Virus record (IMG/VR): IMGVR_UViG_3300031600_000041
Coordinates: 1 to 20,692 of that record
Length of the DNA: 20,692 bases
DNA from: a virus
Strand: one strand, 5' to 3'
The notes under the pieces were generated by a model that searched no databases, was not told where the DNA came from, and saw only the letters and a list, made by a program, of their open reading frames with translations. Within the stretch, counting starts at the first letter, position 1, and each line of letters begins with the position of its first letter. This document shows, piece by piece, positions 3,777 through 20,256 of this stretch. The position numbers and the translations under genes were made by a program.

Positions 3777-4433
3777 GGGAATGTTCCATCTGTTCGTTGA
3801 GTTTGGCGACCATCACTGCCTCGATCACGGGCAGCAGTTCGGCCATTGCGACGGGCGGGATGCCCAGCGCATCACCGAGTGAAAGTGCGGCCGACATATC
3901 CCAGCCGATCACCGCGCCGGGCAGCACGCGCAGCTGACCGCCGAGGCGGCCGATCAGGTCCCAGACCTGCCAGCCTTCAAAGGTGGTGGGTCGGTTCAGC
4001 CGCGCCGGGCAGTCTTCGCAGGTCGCTTGGCACGCGTCGCAGTAGCGCTCGCCCCCGCCGAAGGACCATTCGGCGAGGACGCGGAGACGTTTTTTTCCTG
4101 TTCCAGCAGCAAGCCCTTTGAGACGTAGGTCAATTGGAACGCTTCGAAGATCGGCCAGATGTCGAGAAGCGCATCGACAGCGTCGGGATTGGGGTCGATT
4201 GGATTGCCGTCCGCATCACCAATACCCTCCCATGCAAGCACAGCCCTCCGCGCCAGCGCTTTTGCGAAGGCGACGGCGCGTTCTTCGTCGGAAGCGTCCT
4301 CGGGAATCGCTTCCACGCCGGGGTCGCTCCGCGTCGCCACCATCAGCGCCGTCGTCAGCGGGCGCAGCTGCACCCGCGCGCCCGGTGCGAGATCATGCCA
4401 GCGCGGCTGGTTCGTCAAATCGAGCGTCAGCAT
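3769..4433 (-). CDS. Tail assembly chaperone G-T fusion made by -1 frameshifting
   Basis: The zero-frame chaperone runs from 4433 to the slippery site at 4095-4089. A one-base backward slip there joins it to a second open frame ending with TGA at 3769-3771, for a 221-residue product. The extension (residues 116-221) begins RLRVLAEWSFGGGERYC and holds a C-x2-C-x3-C-x2-C cluster (Cys 132, 135, 139, 142) that looks metal-binding. A helical segment ending NEQMEHSHG follows. The extension frame has no plausible start before residue ~180 of the fusion, so it would be untranslated without the slip, yet its stop overlaps the tape-measure ATG. In lambda and relatives, gpG and gpGT chaperone the tape measure during tail assembly and are absent from the virion. 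The product itself is inferred; the frames, slippery site and hairpin are read directly. Confidence 0.82.
3996..4433 (-). CDS. Tail assembly chaperone, gpG-like (zero-frame product)
   Basis: This 145-residue protein starts LTLDLTNQPRWHDLAPGARV after the Met. Residues ~1-110 form the compact domain, and the zero-frame end after the slippery codons (K114, N115) is a low-complexity Ser/Ala/Lys/Arg tail, as in other G proteins whose C-terminus is simply read-through to a stop. It lies between the tail tube gene and the tape measure, the position of lambda G. I prefer the ATG at 4433, which overlaps the tail tube stop as TGATG, over the TTG one codon upstream. It has no strong family signature that I recognise; the role is assigned from position and the adjacent frameshift signal. 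Confidence 0.8.
   Translation of the reverse strand: MLTLDLTNQPRWHDLAPGARVQLRPLTTALMVATRSDPGVEAIPEDASDEERAVAFAKALARRAVLAWEGIGDADGNPIDPNPDAVDALLDIWPIFEAFQLTYVSKGLLLEQEKNVSASSPNGPSAGASATATRAKRPAKTARRG
4052..4095 (-). promoter_or_regulatory. Programmed -1 ribosomal frameshift signal
   Basis: On the minus strand, seven A followed by C give the heptamer A AAA AAC (4095-4089) in the correct zero-frame phase (GAA AAA AAC), a classic X XXY YYZ slippery sequence. About 9-10 bases downstream is a hairpin. Its core is a perfect 7-bp stem, CGCCGAA/TTCGGCG (arms 4075-4069 and 4062-4056, loop of 6), which extends to about 10-11 bp with G-C and G-T pairs. Spacing and structure fit a stimulatory element. 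The site sits where lambda-like phages place the G/G-T frameshift. Confidence 0.85.
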
Positions 4434-5371
4434 CAATATACCTCAATATCATTGATCAGGGTTGCGGTGCACATCCGACCAACCACGCTGTCGCGGGCTG
4501 CCTGCCAATCGAAGGTGGCCTGAACGCCCTGCGGCCCGGAAATCTCGATCCGGGGGCGCGGCAGATAAACGGCGTGCACCGTGAAGGTGAAACTCTCGCC
4601 AGACGGCAAGACGTAGGCGAACTCGATCTCACAGGGATCGCCGTTGATCGCTTGTGTCACCAGCGTTTGATCGGCGAAGCGCACCTCGATGGAGCCGGTC
4701 AGAGCCGCAATGGACGGGTCAGCGCCGTCGATGCGGCCGTCCGAGCGGATGGTCTCGATCCGGTCGAGATTGTTGGCGTAGGTGATGTCGGCTGAAACGA
4801 CATTGCCGAGGGCTGCGCCGTTGCGCGTAATCGCCCCGTTGAAATGGCCAAAACGCTGCAATTCCAGCGCGGCGGGTGTGCCTGCGCTGGTCGTCGTGCC
4901 CACCGTCTCGCCTTGCGCCACGAGCCGGGCTGTCGCAGTCAGCAGGCCAGATCGCTGCATTTGCCAGTTGATCTGGTCGAGCACGCAGCCGGAATACATC
5001 GCAAAACGCGGCACCTCGGGCATGCCGGTTTCAATTGACATACTGGGCAGCGTCCAGGCACCCGACTGGAAATCATGCGTCCAGGGGCCGGTGCCAGTCG
5101 TGGTCGGATCACCGAATGCCGCCTTCAGCCAGAACCCGAAGGCCTCGGCGTCCAGCGGCACCACAACATCGCCATCCGCCGTCACCGCATCCTTGATCGG
5201 CGCCAGCGGATCCCGGCCATAGCCCAGCAGTTCCGAGCTCAGCAGCGGCTGCTCCGCGCCAAGCGAGGTGCTGGCGAAGGGCATTTTCGTGAAACTGCCC
5301 ACCGGCGGCGTTCCATAGGTCGTCTCGAACGCAAGCGCCATCTGCGCCCGCGCCCCTTGGGCTCTTGCCAT
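4433..5371 (-). CDS. Major tail tube protein (gpV-like position)
   Basis: This 312-residue protein begins MARAQGARAQMALAFETTYG, with the 'ETTYGTPP' opening typical of alphaproteobacterial phage tail tube proteins. The middle section is rich in beta-strand-forming residues and contains GYGRDPLAP and SGCVLDQINW. The C-terminal third has PRIEISGPQGVQATFDWQAA. It precedes the G/G-T genes, as lambda V does. The start is well supported: AGGAG lies 8 bases upstream of the ATG at 5371. This is the first tail gene after the interruption by the plus-strand bactofilin gene, so late transcription must cross that insertion to reach it. Confidence 0.88.
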   Translation of the reverse strand: MARAQGARAQMALAFETTYGTPPVGSFTKMPFASTSLGAEQPLLSSELLGYGRDPLAPIKDAVTADGDVVVPLDAEAFGFWLKAAFGDPTTTGTGPWTHDFQSGAWTLPSMSIETGMPEVPRFAMYSGCVLDQINWQMQRSGLLTATARLVAQGETVGTTTSAGTPAALELQRFGHFNGAITRNGAALGNVVSADITYANNLDRIETIRSDGRIDGADPSIAALTGSIEVRFADQTLVTQAINGDPCEIEFAYVLPSGESFTFTVHAVYLPRPRIEISGPQGVQATFDWQAARDSVVGRMCTATLINDIEVY

Positions 5372-5441
5372 GGGGGTTTCTCCTGTATGTTGAAGCGTAT
5401 GATCCCCGGAAGGGGCCGAAACTCAAAAGGGCAGATCATCA

Positions 5442-5831
5442 ATGACGGACGAAAAGTCTCCCGCCGCCGGATCCGGTGGTCGCTCGCATCTTGGTGCAGG
5501 TTCGCGCATCACTGGCGAGTTGCATTTTCCTGGCACCGTCGAGTTGCCCGGTTACGTCAAGGGACGCGTGGAAGCGTCCGCGATCGTCATCGAGGAAGCA
5601 GGCGAGGTCGAAGGCGAACTCCACGCCGCCAGCATCACCATCAAGGGCCGCTTCGATGGCCAGGTCATGGGCGGCAAGGTAAGGCTGCACGCAAGCGCGC
5701 GTGTGATGGGCGAAATCACCTATGAGAGCCTGAGCATCGAGAGTGGTGCGCAGGTTGAGGGGAAGTTCACGCTCCGACCATATGCCAAAGACACGAAGCC
5801 GGATGATCAGGCCAGTGGGTCGGCCGTGTAA
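5442..5831 (+). CDS. Bactofilin (polymer-forming cytoskeletal protein, DUF583)
   Basis: This 129-residue protein is a recognisable bactofilin (PF04519). A short Gly/Ser-rich N-terminal tail (1-17) leads into repeated short beta-helix rungs: GAGSRITGELHFPGTVELPG, then YVKGRVEAS, IVIEEAGEVEGELHA, ITIKGRFDGQV, VRLHASARVMGEI, LSIESGAQVEGKF. The C-terminal tail (about 112-129) is hydrophilic. Bactofilins polymerise without nucleotide into filaments that organise cell shape, stalks or polar complexes. No transmembrane segment is present. It lies on the strand opposite to the tail genes, 70 bases from the divergent tail tube start, and overlaps the end of the convergent tail-terminator gene by 25 bases. 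A weak AAAGGG lies 11 bases before the ATG. The placement suggests moron cargo. The family call is firm; what it does for a phage is unknown. Confidence 0.93.
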   Translation: MTDEKSPAAGSGGRSHLGAGSRITGELHFPGTVELPGYVKGRVEASAIVIEEAGEVEGELHAASITIKGRFDGQVMGGKVRLHASARVMGEITYESLSIESGAQVEGKFTLRPYAKDTKPDDQASGSAV

Positions 5832-6226
5832 TAATGTAGCACCACCGGGATCACCGCAGCTTTCATGCTGGCCGCGCCCTCGATGGGCAGATCGACCGGA
5901 CGGGGTGCCTCGGCTTCGACCCAGTCACAGAGCCCGCCAAGCGTGCGATCGGCAACAATCGCCGCGCCGATGCTGGCGGTCAGCGTGTCAAAGGCCGCGT
6001 CCCGGTCGGTGCCCTGCACGACTGCCTCAATCTCGGCGCGGTGCTGGTAATGGTAGCGCAGTGGCGACAGCGTGACGTCGGGCTCACCCGGCTCGCCATC
6101 CCGGAGGATCAGCAGGCCAACGGCGGGCACGCGCTCGGGCAGCACATCACCGCGCAGTGCGGTGGCGGGCAGCGTCGAAAGCCCCGCGTGCAGGGCGGTG
6201 AGGATGGTTTCGCGGAGGGTGGGCAT
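5807..6226 (-). CDS. Tail terminator / minor tail protein, gpU-like position
   Basis: This 139-residue protein starts MPTLRETILTALHAGLSTLP and contains VPAVGLLILRDGEPGEPDVTL, YHYQHRAEIEAVVQGTDRDA and a C-terminal PVDLPIEGAASMKAAVIPVVLHY. The layout (helical N-terminus, 'aeIevvvqg' strand, C-terminal strands) and length fit the tail terminators that cap the tail tube (lambda gpU, HK97-type completion proteins). A longer frame begins at 6262, but the internal ATG at 6226 gives the natural N-terminus. It lies between the Z-like and V-like genes as U does in lambda. It is isolated between two plus-strand genes and its 3' end overlaps the bactofilin 3' end. The function rests mostly on synteny. 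Confidence 0.75.
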   Translation of the reverse strand: MPTLRETILTALHAGLSTLPATALRGDVLPERVPAVGLLILRDGEPGEPDVTLSPLRYHYQHRAEIEAVVQGTDRDAAFDTLTASIGAAIVADRTLGGLCDWVEAEAPRPVDLPIEGAASMKAAVIPVVLHYYTADPLA

Positions 6227-6483
6227 GATCTTGTGTTCTCTTACAGATGCAGCGAGCGCCAAGCTGAAGCCAAAAACTCCATTCTTCCCGCAGAGCGTCT
6301 CAACTTGGCAAGATATCGAAATTAATCACAGACAATGCAGCTTCGGAATTCAAGCCTGTATCGTCTGCGCGCTGGAAGCCAGATCAAGCATGGCGACAAC
6401 TGGCACTGAGCAGAGCGCATTGATAGAACTGTTGGATCAAATCATTTATCAATCGGCGCCCAAAGCAAGAAGGCCCATCATCT
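6227..6483. other. AT-richer intergenic region upstream of the methyltransferase
   Basis: The 257 bases between the start of the tail-terminator gene and the start of the methyltransferase are visibly less GC-rich than the phage genes around them. They must hold the ribosome-binding site and any private promoter for the plus-strand methyltransferase (AGAAGG lies about 10 bases before its ATG), and possibly leader sequence for the leftward gene. A TTGATA at 6420 resembles a -35 box, but no good -10 lies at the right spacing. A 33-codon reading frame lies at 6390-6491 (separate entry). Confidence 0.5.
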
Positions 6484-6491
6484 ATGCCTGA
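6390..6491 (+). CDS. Possible small ORF overlapping the methyltransferase start
   Basis: An ATG at 6390 opens a 33-residue frame, MATTGTEQSALIELLDQIIY followed by QSAPKARRPIIYA. It ends in TGA at 6489-6491, overlapping the methyltransferase ATG by 8 bases. The 12-residue helix-like stretch ALIELLDQIIYQ and the overlap are what a short coupled leader peptide would look like. The start has no clear ribosome-binding site, and the same frame stays open far upstream, antisense to the tail-terminator gene, so the openness may be chance. I do not recognise a family. Confidence 0.2.
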   Translation: MATTGTEQSALIELLDQIIYQSAPKARRPIIYA

Positions 6492-7116
6492 GAACACAGA
6501 TCCCTCGGCCTTTTGGAATCGTGTCGCACGCCGCTATGCGGGCATGTCGGTACGTAATCCTTCGGCCTACGAGACCACGCTTGATCGTGTCCGTGCACAT
6601 CTTGAATCAACAGACCGTGTGCTGGAATTGGGCTGCGGTACGGGATCGACCGGAATACGCCTTGCGCCGTCAGTCGGGCAATATATCGCCACTGACTACT
6701 CCGCTGAGATGATCGCCGTCGCCCGTGAGAAGCAGGCTGAGGCCAAAATCCAAAATCTGGACCTCCGCATTGCGCAAGTCGGCGACGCGTCCTTGCCTGA
6801 AGGACCATTCGATGTCGTCCTTGCCTTTAATGTCCTCCATCTCCTCTCTGACCGGCGCGTCGCGCTTGAAGACGTCTCGCGCCGATTGCGTCCCGGTGGC
6901 CTCTTCATCTCCAAGACCCCATGTCTCGGCGGTGGCTACCGTATATTGCAGCCTATAGTAGCGGCTCTGCATTTCTTTGGAAAAGCGCCGAAGTTACGGT
7001 TCTTGACGCCAGCGTCGCTGGAGCGAGAGATTGCCGATATAGGCTTCGAAATCCGGGAGCACGGTGACTACCCGGCACGTCCGCCCAGTCGGTTCATATT
7101 GGCGGCGAAAGGCTGA
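6484..7116 (+). CDS. Class I SAM-dependent methyltransferase
   Basis: This 210-residue protein has a Rossmann-fold methyltransferase domain: motif I VLELGCGTGS (46-55), the acidic post-I residue in ATDYSAEMI (69-77), and GDASLPEGPFDVVLAFNVLHLL (100-121) covering motifs II and III. Then comes LRPGGLFISKTP (135-146), a Methyltransf_11/25-type pattern. The C-terminal half (150-210) has a hydrophobic stretch, PIVAALHFFGK, and ends PSRFILAAKG. There is no DPPY-type motif, so it is not a typical DNA amino-methyltransferase; a small molecule, lipid or protein substrate is more likely, but none can be named. It lies on the plus strand, convergent with DUF6441 (16-base gap), with an AGAAGG ribosome-binding site. 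Its codon use looks less GC-biased than the phage genes around it, suggesting separate acquisition as cargo. Confidence 0.88.
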   Translation: MPENTDPSAFWNRVARRYAGMSVRNPSAYETTLDRVRAHLESTDRVLELGCGTGSTGIRLAPSVGQYIATDYSAEMIAVAREKQAEAKIQNLDLRIAQVGDASLPEGPFDVVLAFNVLHLLSDRRVALEDVSRRLRPGGLFISKTPCLGGGYRILQPIVAALHFFGKAPKLRFLTPASLEREIADIGFEIREHGDYPARPPSRFILAAKG

Positions 7117-17178: not shown

Positions 17179-17636
17179 TCGGCTCCCCCCGGCGCATGCA
17201 ATTCATCGAGGATGCGGTTTGCGATCTGACCCACATTGACGACGATGCATGCGCTTTCGTCTGGTGAAATCAAGATGTCCCCAATGTTGGTGAGTTGAAC
17301 AAACTCGCTACGGCTTTCGTTTTTGAACCAATCTTCAAACCCATGAATCAACCAGACAACCCCAGTGCAGCCATCCGGCTGATCGACGCTGGCGCGCAGA
17401 TATTGCGACAGGTGTTCCTGGACATATCGAAACGCGATTGATGGCCCGAGGCCGATGTTGCGCAATTCCTGTGCCACGGCAATGGCCACCACGTCGCGCC
17501 AGCTATACCAGCGCTCCTTTCCCGACTCGGGGGTATGCTCCGGACAAAAACCGTCGCGCGATATGGCCTGGTTCAGATCATTGCGCTGGATCGGGATCGC
17601 CCGCACCAGATCGGCCAATCGCCAGCGCATGTTCAT
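17175..17636 (-). CDS. Hypothetical protein with a possible helix-turn-helix N-terminus
   Basis: This 153-residue protein starts MNMRWRLADLVRAIPIQRND. Residues ~5-80 resemble a MerR-type or similar DNA-binding unit: LADLVRAIPIQRNDLNQAIS, then a WYSWRDVVAIAVAQELRNIG helix pair and GPSIAFRYVQEHLSQYL. The C-terminal half is a predicted alpha/beta region (VVWLIHGFEDWFKNESRSEF, then SACIVVNVGQIANRILDEL). It is coupled to the methyltransferase upstream (ATGA) and to DUF7220 downstream (ATGA), so all four genes form one operon. Base composition is less GC-rich than the methyltransferases. No family is recognised with confidence, and the HTH reading is an inference. Confidence 0.75.
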   Translation of the reverse strand: MNMRWRLADLVRAIPIQRNDLNQAISRDGFCPEHTPESGKERWYSWRDVVAIAVAQELRNIGLGPSIAFRYVQEHLSQYLRASVDQPDGCTGVVWLIHGFEDWFKNESRSEFVQLTNIGDILISPDESACIVVNVGQIANRILDELHAPGGAE

Positions 17637-18997
17637 TCCGCCGTTCCTTCCAATTCATCAACGGTCACGCCCTTGCCATCGCGCCGCGCCACATCCCCTG
17701 TCGCCATCTCCCACCGCCGTACCGCGACGTCGCAATAGACCGGGTCCAGTTCCATCGCAAAGCAGCGTTGCCCGGCGCGCTCGGCGGCGACCAGCTGGGT
17801 GCCGGAGCCGCAGAACGGTTCATAGATCAGATCGTCGGGATCCGAAAACGCTGTCAGCACCGCCTCGACCAGCGCCACCGGGAACACCGCCGGATGCGAT
17901 CCGGCCGCGCCCAGCCCTCCTTTATGGCGCATGATGCGGAAAACGCTGTCGGGGATGCGGTGGCTTTGGATCGCATTGCCGGTGCCGGTCTTGGCGTGAA
18001 CGGTGCCGTCGGCTCCGCGAAGCCCACCGCCGCCGAGCGTTGTGCCCGCGTGTTTGGACGGGACGGTTTTGTGTGGTTTGCGTGAGCTGTGGTTGAAGTG
18101 GAAAATGAACTCGTGCGACGGCGCCAGGCGGCCGTTCCAGTCGCCCGGCAGGCCCGGGCCCTGATCCCACACATACCAACCAAACCGCCGCCAGCCAGAG
18201 CTGCGCATCCATTCGACCCATCCTTCCCAATAGGGCAACCATTCGCCGTCGCGGTGCACGAGGCCGAGATTGACCAGCAGCTGCGCGTCGGCTTTGAGCG
18301 GGGCCGCAGTGAAGACGCCCTGCATCAGCGCGTCCCAATCACCGACCTTTTCCTTGGCCGCGCCATAGTCGCGCTGCTGGGCGTAAGGCGGCGAGGTGAA
18401 CATCAGCGTGGCTTGCTCGCCTTGCATGAGCTTGGCCACGGCAGCAGGATCGGTCGCATCGCCACAGCACAGCCGGTGCTTGCCCAGCGCCCAGATGTCG
18501 CCCGACTTGGTGATCGGTTCTGCGGGCGGGTCTGGAATCGCATCGGCGTCGTCGTCGGAAATCGCCGGTCCGCCATCGGCGTCTGCCAACAGGGCGTCCA
18601 ATTCGTCCTCGGGGATCCCGATCAGCCCGAGGTCGAAATCCTCGGCCAGCAGCGCCTGCAACTCCTGCAACAGCAGGGCCTCGTCCCAGCCGCCCAGTTC
18701 GGTCAGTTTGTTGTCGGCGATGCGATACGCCCGGCGCTGCGCCTCGGTGAGATGGCCCAGAATAATGACCGGGGATTCCGTTAGGCCAAGTTGAGCGGCG
18801 GCCAGGATGCGGCCATGGCCAGCGATCAGCTCGCCATCAGCAGCCACCAGCACCGGCACGGTCCATCCGAACTCGGCCATGCTGGCGGCGATCTTTGACA
18901 CCTGGTCAGCGTCATGGGTCTTGGCGTTACGGGCGTAGGGCTTCAGTCGGTCCAGCGGCCAATGCTCGATCTGACCGGGCAGAAGCGGCGCGTTCAT
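17633..18997 (-). CDS. ParB-domain DNA methyltransferase, TSPPY type
   Basis: This 454-residue protein has a ParB/Srx-like N-terminal domain (about 9-125; PYARNAK at 20-26, LIAGHGR at 57-63, AYRIADNKLTEL at 90-101). An acidic Asp-rich linker follows (about 138-160), then an amino-methyltransferase domain of class beta order. Motif IV is TSPPY (201-205) and motif I is YEPFCGSGT (392-400). The Ser in SPPY is more usual in N4-cytosine enzymes, so m4C is the better guess. The ATG at 18997 overlaps the upstream paralogue as ATGA. Phage enzymes of this type modify the phage's own DNA, probably against host restriction, or affect packaging and replication. No restriction endonuclease is encoded nearby. 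Its target sequence cannot be deduced. Confidence 0.92.
   Translation of the reverse strand: MNAPLLPGQIEHWPLDRLKPYARNAKTHDADQVSKIAASMAEFGWTVPVLVAADGELIAGHGRILAAAQLGLTESPVIILGHLTEAQRRAYRIADNKLTELGGWDEALLLQELQALLAEDFDLGLIGIPEDELDALLADADGGPAISDDDADAIPDPPAEPITKSGDIWALGKHRLCCGDATDPAAVAKLMQGEQATLMFTSPPYAQQRDYGAAKEKVGDWDALMQGVFTAAPLKADAQLLVNLGLVHRDGEWLPYWEGWVEWMRSSGWRRFGWYVWDQGPGLPGDWNGRLAPSHEFIFHFNHSSRKPHKTVPSKHAGTTLGGGGLRGADGTVHAKTGTGNAIQSHRIPDSVFRIMRHKGGLGAAGSHPAVFPVALVEAVLTAFSDPDDLIYEPFCGSGTQLVAAERAGQRCFAMELDPVYCDVAVRRWEMATGDVARRDGKGVTVDELEGTAE
18593..18997 (-). repeat. Long imperfect direct repeat, copy 1 (ParB half of methyltransferase)
   Basis: The 5' ~405 bases of the downstream methyltransferase gene are a diverged direct copy of 19852-20256. 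The resemblance is visible at DNA level, for example around 18870-18945 versus 20130-20205. It could allow recombination deleting one gene to leave a chimera. Confidence 0.75.
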
Positions 18998-20256
18998 GCC
19001 GCGAGCCTCTTTGCCTTCAGGTCGGCGAAGGACTCGCCAGTTCCTTCAAGCACGGCATTGGCACCGGTGAACTGCTGCCAACGCTCAATGGCGACATCGA
19101 CGTAGGCCGGGTTCAATTCGATTCCGAAGCAGACTCGCCCGGTGGTTTCCGCCGCGATCAGCGTGGTGCCGGATCCCATGAACGGTTCAAAAACCGCTTG
19201 GCCGGGGCTGGAATTGTTCAGGATCGGGCGGCGCATGCATTCGACCGGCTTCTGGGTGCCGTGCACGGTAGCGGCATCCTGATCCTTGCCGGAAATGTGC
19301 CAGAGCGTCGTCTGTTTGCGATCCCCCGCCCAATGGCCTTTGCCGGTTTTCTTGACGGCATACCAGCAGGGTTCGTGCTGCCAGTGATAGTCGCCGCGGC
19401 TCAATACAAGCCGATCCTTGGCCCAGATGATCTGCGACCGCACGGCGAAACCGGCCGCGACGAGGCTCTCGGCCACGGTCGCAGCGTGCAGCGCACCGTG
19501 CCAGACATAGGCGACGTCGCCGGGGAACAATGCCCAAGCCTCGCGCCAGTCGGCACGATCATCGTTCAGCACCTTGCCAGTGCGTTTGGTCTTTGCCGCG
19601 CCCGCCTGATTGCGCCATGACGGGTCATATTCCACGCCATAGGGCGGATCGGTCACCATCAGGAGCGGCTTCACGTCGCCCAGCAACCGCTCGATCACAT
19701 CGGCGGACGTGCTGTCACCGCAGATCAGCCGGTGCGATCCAAGCTGCCAGAGGTCGCCCGGCACCGACACTGGCGTGACCGGCTGTTCGGGAGTGTCATC
19801 CTCGCCCTCGATGGGCCCGTCGTCGCCCAGCGCGTCCGGATCACGCAGCAGGGCATCCAGATCCTCGCCGGTGATGCCCAGCAGCGACAGGTCGAAATCC
19901 TCGGCCAGCAGCCCCGCGATCTCGTCGCGCAGCATGGCCTCGTCCCAGTCGCCCAGCTCGGTCAACTTGTTGTCGGCAATGCGGTAGGCGCGGCGTTCAG
20001 CTTCATCGAGGTGGCCGAGCCGGATCACAGGTACGTCGGTCAGCCCGAGCATCGTGGCCGCCAGCACGCGGCCGTGCCCGGCGATCAGCTCACCATCGTC
20101 GGCCACCATGCAGGGCACGGTCCAGCCGAACTTGGCCATGCTGGCCGCAATCTTGGCCACCTGGTCGTCGCCATGCATCTTGGCGTTTCGAGCGTAGGGA
20201 CGCAGCCGATCAATCGGCCACGTCTCGATCTCGCTTGGCGCGAAGACAAGGTCCAT
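18994..20256 (-). CDS. ParB-domain DNA methyltransferase, TDPPY type
   Basis: This 420-residue protein has the same architecture as its downstream neighbour: a ParB-like domain (about 9-128, with PYARNAK at 20-26 and LIAGHGR at 57-63), an acidic linker (about 138-160), then a methyltransferase domain. Motif IV is TDPPYGV (202-208), followed by HGTQKPVE (332-339) and motif I FEPFMGSGTT (356-365). DPPY points to N6-adenine methylation. The first 135 residues align without gaps to the paralogue, so the pair arose by tandem duplication with divergence of the catalytic part. The ATG at 20256 is the first start of the leftward operon, about 90 bases after a leftward terminator, so its promoter should lie between 20256 and 20342. 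Confidence 0.93.
   Translation of the reverse strand: MDLVFAPSEIETWPIDRLRPYARNAKMHGDDQVAKIAASMAKFGWTVPCMVADDGELIAGHGRVLAATMLGLTDVPVIRLGHLDEAERRAYRIADNKLTELGDWDEAMLRDEIAGLLAEDFDLSLLGITGEDLDALLRDPDALGDDGPIEGEDDTPEQPVTPVSVPGDLWQLGSHRLICGDSTSADVIERLLGDVKPLLMVTDPPYGVEYDPSWRNQAGAAKTKRTGKVLNDDRADWREAWALFPGDVAYVWHGALHAATVAESLVAAGFAVRSQIIWAKDRLVLSRGDYHWQHEPCWYAVKKTGKGHWAGDRKQTTLWHISGKDQDAATVHGTQKPVECMRRPILNNSSPGQAVFEPFMGSGTTLIAAETTGRVCFGIELNPAYVDVAIERWQQFTGANAVLEGTGESFADLKAKRLAA
19852..20256 (-). repeat. Long imperfect direct repeat, copy 2 (ParB half of methyltransferase)
   Basis: This is the partner of the repeat at 18593-18997, covering the ParB-like domain of the upstream methyltransferase. The encoded residues 1-135 are collinear with copy 1, without gaps. 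Confidence 0.75.

Follow-up and report, generated by a model that had tools for sequence, protein, structure and literature searches.

An antisense bactofilin gene between the tail genes of temperate Rhodobacteraceae phages

The bactofilin gene and its surroundings

The window, meaning the whole stretch of DNA analysed here, is a 20.7-kb virus record and a fragment. Between two of its tail genes lies an open reading frame (ORF) that matches PF04519 (bactofilin) with an E-value of 3.1e-24 and 85.5 bits against a curated cut-off of 27.9 (Pfam). An earlier note, made from the DNA letters, had described a DUF583 bactofilin of 129 residues on the plus strand, placed between the tail-terminator and tail-tube genes and opposed to late transcription. 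This description is borne out in each respect, as the ORF is flanked by matches to phrog_4204 and PF18906 and runs against both of these genes. No PHROG or NCBIfam model matched the ORF, and PADLOC gave no match for it. The features of the locus are as follows:

5442..5831, plus strand: bactofilin ORF, 129 aa, type A, with an ATG start and a Pfam match
5372..5441, plus strand: intergenic leader between the tail-tube start and the bactofilin start, presumed to hold the bactofilin promoter
5426..5431, plus strand: AAAGGG, Shine-Dalgarno-like, 10 nt upstream of the bactofilin ATG
5807..5831: antisense overlap of 25 bp between the 3' ends of the bactofilin and tail-terminator genes
5807..6262, minus strand: tail terminator (phrog_4204), one border of the insertion site
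4433..5371, minus strand: tail tube protein (PF18906), the other border of the insertion site
5380-5384, minus strand: tail-tube ribosome-binding site (complement CTCCT), 5' of the tail tube gene

The final seven residues of the bactofilin and its stop codon are encoded in the complement of the tail-terminator gene. An A/G-rich tract like AAAGGG is also found upstream of the bactofilin in type A relatives. No sigma-70 promoter consensus was found in positions 5200-6550, nor was a terminator consensus found for the bactofilin gene. A conserved hairpin in the 5' leader, seen by eye, is unsupported, with arms averaging 4.5 bp against 4.0 bp in shuffled sequences. In base composition, the gene (GC 0.615, GC3 0.71) is only slightly low relative to the tail genes (GC 0.635-0.675, GC3 0.76-0.77).

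Occurrence in viral and host genomes

Contigs L002 and L003 match the window at 99.98% over 11.8 kb, the gene and both of its junctions included; their IMG taxon ids are 3300031394 and 3300031396, and the samples are possibly related. In a Sedimentitalea MAG, the same junction holds a bactofilin that is 94% identical as protein. Given this agreement, an assembly artefact is rejected, and the dozens of further contigs described below, isolates included, complete the case against an assembly or recombination artefact.

A sequence search of IMG/VR found close relatives in 24 contigs; a profile search returned 41, these 24 included. In all of these viral contigs, to the extent that the contig covers the region, the type A bactofilin lies between the terminator and tube genes. 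A scan of genome contigs gave 18 loci, nearly all with Rhodobacteraceae or Roseobacteraceae labels and one with a Hyphomicrobiales label. The survey of phage and prophage genomes that the earlier note had proposed succeeded in IMG/VR, where the gene stands at the tail junction, and in genome contigs, and failed in INPHARED, where tblastn against 50,697 phage records gave no match for type A or for type D (introduced below). Among the viral copies, L020, L025, L139 and L140 are broken by a stop or frameshift; the last three were recovered from two metagenomes whose ids are neighbours (3300001335/6), which makes sequencing error possible.

Prophages carrying the bactofilin are present in both isolate and MAG genomes. 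In four host genomes (G001, G002, G005 and G007), the contig with the bactofilin also encodes a tyrosine integrase, at a distance of 24-29 kb, indicating that the carrier phage is temperate; in the window fragment itself, no integrase was identified. The carriers are a temperate virus family of marine and saline Rhodobacteraceae.

Recurrent insertion at one junction

The terminator/tube junction hosts several types of bactofilin. Matches at lower identity uncovered type B (L162, L163, L171, L173, L179 and L195-L198), type C (L176/L212) and type D (L159/L161), and a type C search of viral contigs gave no further members. The bactofilin is antisense to the tail genes in 84 of 84 scored site entries, a count in which redundant loci are included. 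Overlap with the terminator gene is absent from types B, C and D.

Among the 80 closest tail-tube relatives, the junction was measurable in 78. It is empty in 71 of these, with 27-31 bp from the end of the terminator gene to the start of the tube gene, and the leader (5372..5441) is missing. Four relatives carry a bactofilin there, two of them being the window's own phage, and three carry other cargo. On a tail-tube DNA tree of 112 rows, the bactofilin changes between presence and absence at least 11 times, and at least five of these changes are forced by supported branches; since the rows were partly picked as bactofilin carriers, the tree counts changes and not frequency.

In other loci (L043 4397-4819, L087 2433-2897 and L071 3053-3976), the same junction is taken up by an SNase-like nuclease gene (PF00565) or by a 307-aa unknown ORF. 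These two SNase-like genes and one unknown ORF run along the tail strand, unlike the bactofilins. The terminator/tube junction is a general cargo site.

At the terminator/DUF6441 junction of the window, a SAM methyltransferase gene (6484-7116, plus strand) lies antisense to the tail operon. Among the loci compared, it is found only in the window's own phage (L002/L003), and other loci have from 0 to about 3 kb of different DNA at this position. Its PADLOC match to mad2 probably reflects a generic methyltransferase domain. Elsewhere in the window (17633-20256, minus strand), adjacent proteins of 454 aa and 420 aa match DNA adenine methyltransferase models, and the first of the two also matches a ParB-like domain.

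Relationship to host bactofilins

The earlier note had suggested comparing the tree position of the gene with that of the host's own bactofilins. In the resulting tree, types A, B and C are united in a single clade with support 99/93, apart from both the host core bactofilin and host type H. Type A is about 40% identical to the host core bactofilin, which, in combination with the separate clade, rules out a recent host copy. Type D falls outside the A+B+C clade on a long branch. The simplest reading of this placement is that two or more unrelated bactofilin lineages (A+B+C and D) occupy the junction, implying at least two acquisitions.

All eight host genomes examined encode a core-type bactofilin alongside the phage copy. 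Across 397 genomes of the host family, some bactofilin is found in 389 and type A (>60% identity) in six. At residue 109 (window numbering), Cys is found in all 12 proteins of type B and in 25 of the 39 of type A; host type H has Phe there, and the host core has Val.

Selection and persistence in decayed prophages

Type A bactofilins are under purifying selection, with a median pairwise dN/dS of 0.22 (772 pairs). By region, dN/dS is 0.048 for residues 14-37, 0.088 for residues 38-60, 0.23 and 0.20 in the remaining core and 0.44-0.66 in the tails. Conservation of the protein in 41 viral contigs, together with a dN/dS of about 0.2, shows that the ORF is not there by chance.

An intact bactofilin ORF is present in six genome loci that are decayed prophages (L109, L113, L115, L116, L119 and L121). 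Phage homology at these relics extends about 60-140 bp upstream of the bactofilin, where the leader is kept, and up to about 400 bp downstream. The tube gene is absent or broken, as in L113 with a stop after MARA, and a readable stretch of the terminator gene is found in L109 only. Compared with their nearest relatives, the relic bactofilins have an omega of about 0.10-0.36 and thus a constraint about as elsewhere, a value that is not branch-specific and in which divergence may partly predate decay. The survival of the bactofilin where neighbouring tail genes have decayed suggests that its function lies in the infected cell rather than in the virion.

Predicted structure and membrane association

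The right-handed beta-helix for which the earlier note had suggested a structure prediction was predicted by AlphaFold2, with core pLDDT mostly above 90, a beta-helix core of about residues 15-111 and short disordered tails. The best PDB matches are BacA (2n3d; target-normalised TM 0.91, 1.4 A, 33% identity) and the TtBac filament structure (6rib; TM 0.88, 30% identity). The protein is short, and accordingly the Foldseek E-values are weak (2e-3); the PF04519 sequence match is independent of the fold match.

Membrane binding by BacA needs an N-terminal membrane-targeting peptide resembling MFSKQAKS, and polymerisation and membrane binding stimulate each other (PMC12448750). Host core proteins start with MFSK in eight of eight cases, and most host H types also have the peptide. 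Type A proteins begin with MTDE, MADQ, MMDQ or similar and have no MFSK-type peptide; type B proteins, which mostly begin with MSQT, likewise have none. From its N-terminal sequence (MSIFGKQTK), type D may retain the peptide.

The position of the polymerisation Phe is occupied by F130 in Caulobacter, F105 in Thermus and L110 in H. pylori (PMC12364344). At this position in the C-C interface, type A proteins have V, I or L (V105 in the window protein), the host core has an invariant F, and host type H also has V or I. The hydrophobic V105 is compatible with nucleotide-independent polymerisation. Furthermore, type A proteins are more alike at the N-end (identity 0.93) than at the C-end (0.76), reversing the gradient of the host core (0.81 and 0.96).

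A probable moron acting in the lysogen

The bactofilin gene is a genuine accessory gene of phages, found recurrently and under selection. It separates two genes that are neighbours in close relatives and occurs sporadically, as for a moron, and the moron-like character ascribed to it by the earlier note agrees with the presence/absence polymorphism, the clean empty sites and the intact copies in decayed prophages. It is reasonably probable that the gene is an accessory moron of a temperate Rhodobacteraceae siphophage and acts in the host cell, the lysogen, rather than in the virion. Several points count against this reading: the lack of a consensus promoter and terminator for expression in the lysogen, the few broken viral copies, the missing integrase in the window fragment, and the solo chromosomal copies discussed below, which could make the phage a mere vehicle for a mobile host gene.

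In this reading, the bactofilin gene, inserted antisense at the terminator/tube junction, would be transcribed in the lysogen from a promoter in its leader. Its product is a small bactofilin with a predicted normal beta-helix. It keeps the hydrophobic V105 at the C-C polymer interface but has neither an N-terminal membrane-targeting peptide nor the long C-terminal tail seen in the BacA-type protein of the host. Most likely, such a protein would join, cap or redirect the membrane-bound bactofilin scaffold of the host through its highly conserved N-terminal end. Envelope-building or receptor proteins might then be relocated, which could benefit the lysogen through, for example, surface change or superinfection exclusion. 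The target is probably the host bactofilin or envelope scaffold. A possible candidate is an abundant host bactofilin such as SPO2231, the BacA of Ruegeria pomeroyi, which ranks first among the major proteins of the inner-membrane fraction, with a relative abundance of 11-13% (PMC9938194, Table 2).

In a more specific form of this host-directed model, the phage protein would be soluble and dominant-negative, copolymerising with host BacA or capping it and so drawing BacA off the membrane. The missing targeting peptide, the reversed gradient of constraint and the replacement of the invariant host Phe by V, I or L would all suit such a partner, as would the mutual stimulation of polymerisation and membrane binding in BacA. 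However, identity to host BacA is only about 40%, and the V/I of host type H and the L110 of H. pylori make it likely that self-polymerisation is intact in the phage bactofilin. This form of the model is possible but somewhat doubtful.

It is unlikely that the bactofilin is a hitchhiking mobile host gene, in which case A+B+C would be chromosomal bactofilins with a host function unrelated to the phage, occasionally captured and redistributed by phages. This account draws on chromosomal members of the clade that adjoin different host genes (atpB, sufS-like, M16 peptidases, pckA and thiolase) and branch among the site members in the tree. Yet the six type A chromosomal loci examined with upstream DNA all keep remnants of the phage leader or of the tail genes, indicating transfer from phage to chromosome there, and repeated fixation at one phage site implies a benefit to the lysogen or the phage. 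The solo chromosomal members L199, L202, L204-L206 and L208-L211 are possibly domesticated phage genes.

A role in organising virion assembly, raised in the earlier note, fares worse. A bactofilin that scaffolds tail-tube assembly would explain its position by the tube gene, which is invariant across divergent tails. Against this, the gene runs against the tail genes, it is found in only 4 of the 78 nearest tails with a measurable junction, and the tube tree requires at least 11 gains or losses. In addition, the ORF is preserved after loss of the tube and terminator genes, and unrelated cargo (SNase) uses the same junction. The small share of very close tails with the gene and its outliving of the tail genes in decayed prophages make a virion or tail-assembly factor very improbable. 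Antisense regulation of the tail operon with an incidental protein, for which the constant antisense orientation and the 25-bp terminator overlap in the window might speak, is scarcely credible against strong selection at the amino-acid level and the absence of that overlap in types B, C and D.

Returning to the moron acting in the lysogen, a broader proposal can be made tentatively: temperate phages may use a membrane-detached bactofilin to remodel or poison the abundant membrane-bound scaffold of the host during lysogeny, a strategy that would have been acquired at least twice at one site and sometimes left behind in chromosomes.

Comparison with known systems

No report of a phage-encoded bactofilin was found in the open-access literature. 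The word bactofilin is absent from a study of Rhodobacteraceae prophages (PMC8224337), and an apparent mention of DUF583 in a defence paper (PMC13092281) is a prefix match to DUF5830. A BFVD fold search gave no bactofilin-like match among the matches listed, and none at E <= 0.001.

Bactofilins have been studied as bacterial shape and scaffold proteins. A selected, site-specific and recurrent phage bactofilin without a membrane anchor would offer a natural probe of the scaffold role in envelope organisation, and could show prophages supplying new cytoskeletal genes to alphaproteobacterial chromosomes. These ideas are directly testable in culturable lysogens, such as those of the non-pathogenic marine isolates Puniceibacterium sediminis DSM 29052 and Roseovarius gaetbuli CECT 8370.

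The phage protein shares the PF04519 beta-helix with BacA of Caulobacter crescentus (PDB 2N3D), an alphaproteobacterial core bactofilin. It differs in having 33% identity, no MFSKQAKS peptide, a short C-terminal tail and V instead of F at the C-C interface, and in being prophage-encoded. The bactofilin of Thermus thermophilus (PDB 6RIB/6RIA) has the same fold but is chromosomal and 30% identical.

Prophage morons, as in lambda-like phages, are alike in being extra opposite-strand genes between neighbours, sporadic, and intact in defective prophages. Unlike them, the present gene carries cytoskeletal cargo, has no recognisable promoter/terminator pair and belongs to a protein family acquired recurrently at one site. 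Among polymer-forming proteins, phages are known to use the tubulin PhuZ and actin-like proteins, which depend on nucleotides and serve the lytic cycle or replicon partition, whereas bactofilin is nucleotide-independent and is here accessory cargo.
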